Shown: piece by piece, positions 49,811 through 51,776 of the stretch | Numbering within the stretch: the first letter of the stretch is position 1 | Layout: every line of letters starts with the position of its first letter | Assembly (NCBI RefSeq): GCF_900105735.1 | Contig: NZ_LT629793.1 | Coordinates: 5,456,001-5,520,000, forward strand | Reading direction: 5' to 3' | Length of the DNA stretch: 64,000 bases | From: Pseudomonas yamanorum | GTDB lineage: Bacteria; Pseudomonadota; Gammaproteobacteria; Pseudomonadales; Pseudomonadaceae | Program-made: the position numbers and the translations under genes | Notes under the pieces: generated by a model | What the model was told of the DNA's origin: nothing | Seen by the model: only the letters and a program-made list of their open reading frames with translations | The model's database searches: none

Positions 49811-50083
49811 GATGACTTCCTACGGGGGTGATTGGTGTGGAGTTCACAGTAGTGGAGGGGGATTAGTTGCTCAATAGAGACGACGTAAACGTTATGGCTG
49901 GGGTTGAATCTATACGGAATCTTTACGTGGTTGTTGTGTGTATATCCGTTTTTTAGGTAACGGCTACTTATGGTTTCGCTCTTACAGCGAGTCACTTTGC
50001 AAAAGCGGCAAAGTAACCAAAACGCTCTGCCCCGCCTGTCGGCACCTCGCCTAGGCTCGGTGTTCCCTTGTAAGATTATTTTC

Positions 50084-50208
50084 ACCTGCTTCAGACCGTG
50101 GTGCCCTCAGATTTCAAGATCGTGAGTGAGCATGGGTCGAAGCAGGTTCTTTTCTAAACTAGTCCGAACGGTTGCCTGGGCGTAAAGCCCGATTCTGCAA
50201 GGTTGGAC
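50084..50208 (+). ncRNA. Candidate bridge RNA of the IS110-type element
   Basis: Stem-loop 1: ACCTGCTTC+GACC (50084-50097) pairs with GGTC+GAAGCAGGT (50135-50147). Its loop holds GTGCCCTCA (50101-50109), identical to the target arm sequence, and GAGTGAG (50124-50130), complementary to CTCACTC of the same target. Stem-loop 2: GTCC/AAC (50162-50169) pairs with GTTGGAC (50202-50208). It holds ACGGTTGC (50168-50175), identical to the element's right end at 51173-51180, and TGCAAG (50196-50201), which pairs with CTTGTA of the left end with one wobble. A small GGGC/GCCC hairpin sits at its tip. This is the target-loop/donor-loop plan of IS110 bridge RNAs. Confidence 0.75.
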
Positions 50209-50222
50209 GTGAGGAAAACGCC

Positions 50223-51164
50223 ATGGACCATGACTCTGCGTTCGTCGGAATTGATGTTTCCAAAAACAAGCTCGACTCATTCGTCAGCACTACTGGCCAA
50301 GTCGAGCAGTTTTTCAATACTCCAGAAGATATCCAGCGTTTAGCTAAGCATCTCAAGGCTCAGATGCCCGCTTTAGTGGTGCTGGAAGCAACTGGCGGAT
50401 ATGAGCGGCTTGCCGCTGCCGAGCTTTGCGCTGCTGGATTACCAGTCGTTGTTGTCAATCCCCGTCAGGTCCGTGATTTCGCTAAGGCTACCGGACGGCT
50501 GGCTAAAACCGACGCTCTGGATGCCCAGGTGATTGCGGAGTTTGCTCAGGCGGTCAAACCCGAAATTCGGGAGATGCCAGATGAACACGCTCGTGAACTG
50601 GCAGATCTACTGACTAGACGCCGTCAGCTTATCGATATGATCGTGGCGGAGGAGTCTCGACTGAAACAGGCGGTATTCAAGGCGCTTCGACGGGATATCA
50701 AGGCACATATCGTCTGGCTTCAAAAGCGTCTTAAAAGTACAGACGATGACTTGCACGAAGCGATCAAAGCTTCGCCGGCCTGGAAGGCCAATTATGATTT
50801 GCTGCGCGAGGTCTCAGGTGTTGGCAATGTGCTCGCACTTTCGCTGCTGGCGATGGTTCCTGAGCTAGGCAAAGTGAATCGCAAACAAGTGGCTGCATTG
50901 GTTGGTGTGGCCCCTTTTAACTGCGATAGCGGCCTGTACAAAGGACGTAGACGGATATGGGGTGGTCGAGCTGAGGTGCGAAGTGTGCTTTACATGGCTG
51001 TCTTGTCCTCGAAGAGCCATAACCCGGTGATCGAGAGGTTCTACAACCGTCTGCTTGCTGCAGGGAAGACGAAGAAAGTGGCGCTGGTTGCATGCATGAG
51101 AAAGCTGCTGACGATCCTGAATGCGATGGTCCGAGATCAAAAACATTTCGCTGAAATGGCTTGA
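50223..51164 (+). CDS. IS110-family recombinase (transposase)
   Basis: This 313-residue recombinase has an N-terminal RuvC-like DEDD domain ([33 protein letters not shown]), a coiled-coil middle and a C-terminal Tnp_20 domain ([20 protein letters not shown], then [17 protein letters not shown], which contains the expected catalytic serine). ATG 50223 follows GAGGA at 7 nt. The protein appears intact. It would act with the RNA encoded just upstream. Confidence 0.93.
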
Positions 51165-51776
51165 GATTCGACACGGTTGCTCACTCCGGCTTTGGACCGT
51201 GGGCCGCCGCGACGGGCCATCCATGGCCCGGCGCGGCTAAACCGGCGTCCTGCCGGTTTACCCGCTCCGCAATACCTGCGTTCGGCCTCGGGCTTATTGG
51301 GGCAGTCAGATCAAAATCAAAAGCAGATCAAGAGCACAGCGGCCTCCCGGCCGGCTTGAGTGTTAGAAGCCAGATCAAAAGCCAGAGCGAAAGCCAAATC
51401 TGAAGCTGATGCAGCTCTGCTTTTCTGTGGGAGCTGGCTTGCCTGCGATGCAGACACCTCGGTACATCAGGTACACCCAGTTGATGCCATCGCAGGCAAG
51501 CCAGCACACACATTTGGACCGTGCCCGCTTTGGCTTTTGATTTTGCTCTTCAACACTCAAGCCGGCCGGTAGGCCGCTGCTGTGCTCTTGCTTTTGATCT
51601 TGATCTTAGGCGCCCCGTTAAACCACGCTGGCCGAACGCAGGCTTTGGAGCGTGGGTAACCCGGCAGGACGCCGGGTTAGCCGCGCTGGGCCAAGGATGG
51701 CCCATCGCGGCGGCCCACGGTCCAAAGCCGGAGTGAGGGCACTCCGAGCCTAGGCGAGGAGCCGAGTGGTGGGGCA

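Follow-up and report, generated by a model that had tools for sequence, protein, structure and literature searches.

An IS110-type element that interrupts one arm of a large palindrome in Pseudomonas yamanorum raises the question of how it selects this site, and whether the leader of its recombinase gene encodes a bridge RNA with guides for both the target and the element's own ends, as the original prediction had proposed. The locus was analysed within a stretch of 64,000 nt (GCF_900105735.1, NZ_LT629793.1, positions 5,456,001-5,520,000), hereafter the window, to which all feature coordinates refer (Table 1); the genome itself (G000) is a single 7.09-Mb contig. From the features described below, it is close to certain that this is an insertion sequence of the IS110 group which moves by RNA-guided recombination, involving a circle, a junction promoter, a bridge RNA and guide pairing.

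The element and its insertion sites

The recombinase contains the domain pair characteristic of the IS110 family, a DEDD RuvC-like domain and a C-terminal Transposase_20 domain (Pfam PF01548, 92.9 bits, and PF02371, 58 bits, both above cut-off), and scores 225.6 bits against the NCBIfam model NF033542 'IS110 family RNA-guided transposase' (cut-off 140). Solved relatives in the PDB are ISCro4 (E 3.5e-38) and IS621 (E 3.2e-35), and residues D11, E55, D97, D100 and S236, whose catalytic role we in part assume, align with the same ISCro4 residues. A weak match of the protein (50223-51161) to the NCBIfam model for TIGR-Tas RNA-guided endonucleases (19.5 bits, E 0.00075) lies far below the cut-off of 100. 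The longer non-coding end lies 5' of the gene, with a 154-nt leader versus 17 nt between the stop codon and the core end, which places the element in the IS110 rather than the IS1111 group. Elsewhere, the window contains duplicated tRNA pairs with equal scores (5159-5569 and 33297-37994) and a guanidine-II riboswitch (31007-31059, minus strand, 40.5 bits).

Table 1. Coordinates of the element, its predicted RNA and promoter parts, and the palindromes within the window
Feature	Positions	Strand	Remarks
Intact 809-bp palindrome with empty target site	24348-25156		Extends between ATATCCGTT and AACGGATAT
Empty target site TGTGCCCTCACTC	25024-25036	-	14/15 to the two target guides; the window has just one other 13-mer at this score
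Twice-interrupted palindrome (IS110 in left arm, IS481-type in right outer arm)	49942-53172		Ends ATATCCGTT at 49942 and AACGGATAT at 53164-53172
CT core, left junction	50067-50068	+	CT at both junctions in 8/8 copies
IS110 element, 1113 bp including one CT core	50069-51181	+	8 copies at 100% identity; junctions from comparison with intact palindromes
-10-like TAAGAT	50071-50076	+	Completed by TTGAGA only in the closed circle, spacing 17
Predicted bridge RNA core, target-binding and donor-binding stem-loops	50080-50211	+	Covariance model R1 of 46 relatives; fold z -3.37
Left target guide (LTG) GGTGCCCT	50100-50107	+	7/8 to usual target TGTGCCCT, 6/8 to interrupted site
Right target guide (RTG) GAGTGAG	50124-50130	+	Complement of CTCACTC, 7/7
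Left donor guide (LDG) ACGGTTGC	50168-50175	+	Identical to right end 51173-51180; 7/7
Right donor guide (RDG) TGCAAG	50196-50201	+	Pairs with CTTGTA (core plus left end), one G-T wobble; by eye
IS110 recombinase, 313 aa	50223-51164	+	Pfam, NCBIfam and PDB matches
-35-like TTGAGA, overlapping the recombinase stop codon	51161-51166	+	Joined-end sequence
CT core, right junction	51180-51181	+	CT at both junctions in 8/8 copies
Still-empty site AGTGCCCTCACTC, other arm of interrupted palindrome	51731-51743	-	14/15

The genome contains eight copies of the element (33 of 33 candidates scored), each identical over the full 1113 bp, with all insertions at one position, a single base in the arm of a palindromic repeat of about 809 bp. 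All eight share the left flank G(T/C)GT(G/T)CCCT, with TGCCCT in six copies and TTCCCT in two, and the right flank CTCACTCCGGC. Since the copies are identical and lie within a repeat that has many homologous copies, some of them could have spread via homologous recombination or gene conversion between palindromes rather than by independent transposition. We regard such a contribution as unlikely: the immediate flanks vary among copies (GGCGTTCCCT, GGTGTTCCCT, GGTGTGCCCT), although short conversion tracts are still compatible with this variation, and exchange between palindromes would leave the fit of the guides described below unexplained.

A predicted leader RNA with target and donor guides

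The leader forms two predicted stem-loops (-54.8 kcal/mol versus a shuffle mean of -42.45, n = 200; z -3.37), with 1 of 200 shuffles reaching an equal value. Its two internal loops are arranged as in a bridge RNA, target before donor and with CT inside the pairings; the right donor guide was assigned by eye only, and its CAAG is almost invariant among the leaders of relatives. The motifs of the original prediction all lie in the window where it had placed them, and the two-stem-loop fold, the CT core at both junctions and the palindrome size of 809 bp also hold. We place the left target guide at GGTGCCCT, where the earlier version was GTGCCCTCA (50101-50109). The usual target TGTGCCCT has one mismatch to this 8-nt guide. 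A mismatch had also been predicted for the interrupted arm (TGTTCCCT); it is present, but the count of one has to be corrected to two, since the first base of the guide, G, also differs from T. The imperfect fit of the left target guide at both the usual site and the site interrupted in the window counts against guide pairing.

Alternatively, the leader could act purely as a regulatory 5'-UTR of the recombinase gene, its matches to target and ends being incidental. Regulatory RNAs are described at the leader of ISPpu9 from P. putida in parts of PMC8450116, and one leader may serve both roles. A purely regulatory role is nevertheless scarcely credible, as an ordered combination of LTG at 7/8 or better, full RTG and full LDG was absent from all 20000 dinucleotide-shuffled leaders (the single matches occurred in 1348, 485 and 205 shuffles, respectively), and as the fit of guides to targets and ends among 53 elements lies above all 5000 permutations (see below). 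Furthermore, only 2 of the 127974 13-mers on both strands of the window reach at least 14/15 to both target guides, a score in which the two core bases are counted in both guides, and both are palindrome sites.

The framework of this putative bridge RNA is common to 46 relatives (alignment A2), and for 16 of 20 predicted pairs one or more sequences differ at both positions yet still pair. A covariance model of these 46 sequences, none of them from Pseudomonas and with the window element and its Pseudomonas kin left out, recovers the leader at 50080-50211 with 80 bits (E 4.5e-18), followed by the next window match at E 0.18. Across the whole genome, the model identifies eight places, which are the eight copies of the element (150 of 2391 first-look candidates scored). 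Rfam at gathering scores yields no match within the leader. The identification of the leader as an IS110 bridge RNA, for which a covariance search and the conservation of the stems in homologues had been proposed as checks, is thus borne out by the covariance match, the guide fit and the conserved stems. Covariation in IS110 elements was reported earlier in passages of PMC11208160, and the present covariation repeats it on other data. The computed RNA fold, the guide matches and the insertion points are directly established.

Guide fit across 53 elements

Relatives were collected in one scan of species-representative genomes, from which the best 80 of 290 were taken; two are Pseudomonas contigs at 65-66% identity, and the remainder, at 50-62%, belong to many phyla according to their record titles. 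Seventy of the 80 loci were used, ten being omitted owing to too little flank or as a further copy. Together with the window element and four copies from the Pseudomonas genome G188, 75 elements were tried and 61 parsed; the 14 failures comprised seven with a short left flank, four without a left end, two with a short right flank and one without a right end. Eight of the 61 were then dropped (one misparse, one with Ns and six further or near copies), leaving 53 elements including the window element and one G188 copy. The covariance model was built from 46 of these, without the window element, G188 and five more relatives.

Guides fit their own element's sites better than swapped ones for LTG (6.64 of 8 versus 5.41), RTG (6.58 of 7 versus 5.12) and LDG (6.85 of 7 versus 6.04), and for each of the three guides 0 of 5000 permutations reached the mean of the own pairs. 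Near relatives have not been entirely removed from the 53 elements, and in some rows a guide is mislocated; because of the near relatives, the permutation result is to be read as a guide rather than an exact probability.

Guides and targets in Pseudomonas relatives

A search of 398 Pseudomonas genomes with the leader, in which up to two candidates per genome were scored, gave matches in six, including the P. yamanorum genome. In G188, which encodes a recombinase 96% identical to that of the window element, all seven copies scored share the same insertion point; further copies in G188 are possible, since scoring covered seven candidates per genome. Their left targets are TGTGCCCT in five copies, TGTACCCT in one and TGTTCCCT in one, and their right targets are CTCACTC in five and CTCTCTC in two. 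The original expectation that other copies would occupy guide-matching sites is therefore realised in eight of eight copies of the P. yamanorum genome and in seven of seven scored in G188. G048 shares its guides and left junction with the window element, at a contig end. Among plasmids, the one close relative is a decayed copy in Pseudomonas antarctica (NZ_CP015601.1; G197), which is 92-93% identical, has a recombinase gene broken by stops and is flanked by GGCATGTCCT and CTCACTCCGG; 1287 further records in the plasmid collection fall below 60%.

The guides of G229 are GGTTCCCT and GAGGGAG; its junctions read GGTCCCCT on the left and CTCCTTC on the right, and since the two ends lie on different contigs, their pairing is inferred. 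G368 has the guides CAGTGACT and GGGCGAG in a leader truncated on its right by an assembly gap, a left junction AAGTGACT, and a right flank CTCGCCC taken from a separate deletion remnant. The fit of LTG and RTG to the element's own site is 7/8 and 7/7 in G000, 8/8 and 7/7 in G188, 7/8 and 6/7 in G229, and 7/8 and 7/7 in G368. In comparison, the G368 guides fit the G000 site at 2/8 and 5/7, and the G000 guides fit the G368 site identically. G000 and G229 are only weakly discriminated by their near-equal cross fits, as the G000 guide matches the G229 left site at 7/8, like G229's own guide, and the G229 guides match the G000 right site at 6/7, equal to their own, and the left site at 6/8 versus 7/8.

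By eye, the G368 site corresponds to the outer portion of a palindrome of this kind (AAAGTGACTCGC, GTAAGGGGCGAAACC); with both guides rewritten, the G368 relative uses a different position, apparently in a related palindrome. A 12-mer forecast of the G368 target, AGTGACTCGCCC, had 0 exact matches in G368, against 1 for the reversed control, and was rejected. A longer pattern with up to three mismatches found 11 places versus 3 in the control, comprising one exact empty site AAGAGAAAGTGACTCGCC, three left junctions and seven weaker places. In two G368 loci, remnants with the left end of the element are joined to other sequence, representing internal deletions or assembly joins.

Since the target is a large palindrome, the recombinase might instead read its shape, as a cruciform or hairpin, rather than its bases, and several IS elements occupy REP palindromes according to parts of PMC1525189. 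This we hold to be very improbable: insertion is asymmetric and precise to the single base in 15 of 15 copies read from two genomes, and the G368 relative uses a different spot with guides fitting that spot. That the predicted guides are tuned to the palindrome, as had been proposed, is supported by guides and targets having changed together among the Pseudomonas kin.

A putative promoter at the circle junction and the missing 5' stem-loop

Joining of the element's ends would form a promoter, TTGAGA-N17-TAAGAT, where the integrated form has CGCCTA-N17-TAAGAT at the same spacing. Such a promoter rebuilt at the circle junction is present as a sequence match, though not as the sole pair at its score, as a second junction pair, TCGACA-N16-TATTTT, scores equally in a plain scan. 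At a fixed spacing of 17, a -35 match of at least 5/6 was identified in 39 of 53 joined ends versus 0 of 53 integrated flanks, and 10 of 53 circle junctions match at 3/6 or less.

In the mechanism that we infer from this anatomy and from the covariation, the element would leave the chromosome as a circle, and its joined ends would act as the promoter driving the bridge RNA. By the mechanism shown for IS621, the recombinase would bind this RNA; the first loop would pair with the palindrome arm on both sides of the CT core and the second with the joined ends of the element around their own CT, and palindrome arm and joined ends would then be recombined.

The leader has 15 unpaired nt between the core and the first stem and lacks the 5' stem-loop of IS621; owing to this short distance, a transcript from the junction promoter would begin at about the stem. 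A similarly short lead occurs in a few relatives, with RTG offsets of 52, 53 and 57 (L167, L123 and L176, respectively) versus 55 in the window element. According to passages of PMC11208158, IS621 RNA was bound less well once its 5' stem-loop had been deleted, and recombination decreased slightly. As IS621 was only weakened, the absence of this stem-loop is compatible with a bridge RNA.

The target palindrome and its orientation in the genome

The repeat consists of two arms and a central hairpin TGTGGGAGCTGGCTTGCCTGCGAT (24718-24804 and 51426-51512), which we take to be REP-like, forming a small repeat nested in a large one. REP itself is not the target, as the insertion site lies in the arm of the 809-bp repeat, away from the central hairpin. 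An alignment of 24 of 30 fetched copies reveals one conserved unit between TACATATCCGTT and AACGGATATACA. The copy number of the repeat is a lower bound, as 40 of 602 first-look candidates were scored. The palindrome loci L009-L038 are of two main types, combining a TGCCCT arm either with a TGCCCG arm, which lacks the CT core, or with a mostly TTCCCT arm. The Rfam family TwoAYGGAY scores above gathering in the repeat arms (24498-24561, 24927-25029, 51201-51263 and 51634-51736), and its Pseudomonas members may be just this palindrome. An IS481-type element at about 51777-53082 (NF033577, 214.1 bits, just below the cut-off of 224; inverted ends 80% complementary; outer limits by eye) occupies the right outer arm of the palindrome that also carries the IS110 element, a second interruption of this copy.

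The genome contains 86 empty CCCTCACTCCGGC sites and 33 CCCGCACTCCGGC sites without the CT core, with 0 matches of the reversed control pattern for both. Equivalent places to land are thus plentiful for the element, whose target is one base position of a repeat with 86 exact CT sites still empty. It occupies 8 of 94 CT arms versus 0 of 33 CG arms, a difference that is not significant alone (p 0.083).

A less expected result is that the exact target sites are oriented by replication direction in this genome. Relative to dnaA (3.416 Mb) and to a dif-like site (7.075 Mb) that was located with a motif which we take to be that of dif, 46 of 52 exact TGCCCTCACTCCGGC sites obey the orientation rule (Fisher p 2.6e-8), with 18 of 20 on the plus strand below 2.2 Mb and 28 of 32 on the minus strand above 4.3 Mb. 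Furthermore, a 2.21-Mb gap around the origin is without exact sites (2.7e-7 such gaps expected under uniform scatter); variant palindrome copies at 2.36, 2.87 and 3.16 Mb indicate that the gap is depleted rather than empty.

Comparison with known systems

As in IS621 and ISCro4, the recombinase combines a DEDD and a Transposase_20 domain. Passages of PMC11208160 describe for IS621 a leader-encoded RNA with a target loop followed by a donor loop, a CT core in all guide pairings and a circle-rebuilt promoter, all of which have putative counterparts here. In contrast to IS621 and ISCro4, the window leader is just 154 nt long, lacks the 5' stem-loop and begins its first stem 15 nt past the core, and the target lies in an 809-bp palindrome and not in a REP. 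All copies of ISPpu9, ISPpu10 and ISPa11 lie in a repeated palindrome as well (7/7, 7/7 and 6/6, respectively, in parts of PMC1525189), but their targets are REPs of 20-40 bp (excerpts of PMC3733652) compared with a repeat of about 809 bp. Related elements with different target guides and correspondingly different targets are described for ISEc11 and ISXne4 in passages of PMC11187229 (seekRNA), whereas in G368 the new target looks, by eye, like a different position within a related palindrome. Among Pseudomonas repeats, R200 (320 bp) and R26 (352 bp), described in parts of PMC2718517, could be parts of the palindromic repeat. In literature on IS110, bridge RNA, Pseudomonas repeats and palindromes, TwoAYGGAY and short end motifs, a scope outside which most subscription journals lie, neither the element nor the palindrome was recognised in the portions covered of the matches listed.

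By its sequence, the element is a new member of the IS110 group with a predicted canonical bridge RNA, a kind that is itself already known. Its bridge RNA, target and ends could be read correctly from raw sequence. Tentatively, and with somewhat less than even confidence, the results can be read jointly as follows: this IS110 lineage would have specialised in a single superfamily of large palindromes in Pseudomonas, its guides having tracked the drift of the arms by species (G000, G188 and G229) and once jumped within the palindrome (G368); palindromes may escape through loss of CT in one arm, as at the 33 unoccupied CG sites; and the RNA would work without a 5' stem-loop. The short leader without this stem-loop represents a natural compact design, and the guide sets of the Pseudomonas kin, closely related and each accompanied by its target, form a small natural series. 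The host repeat, which is large, palindromic and oriented by replication, looks less understood than the element that inserts into it.
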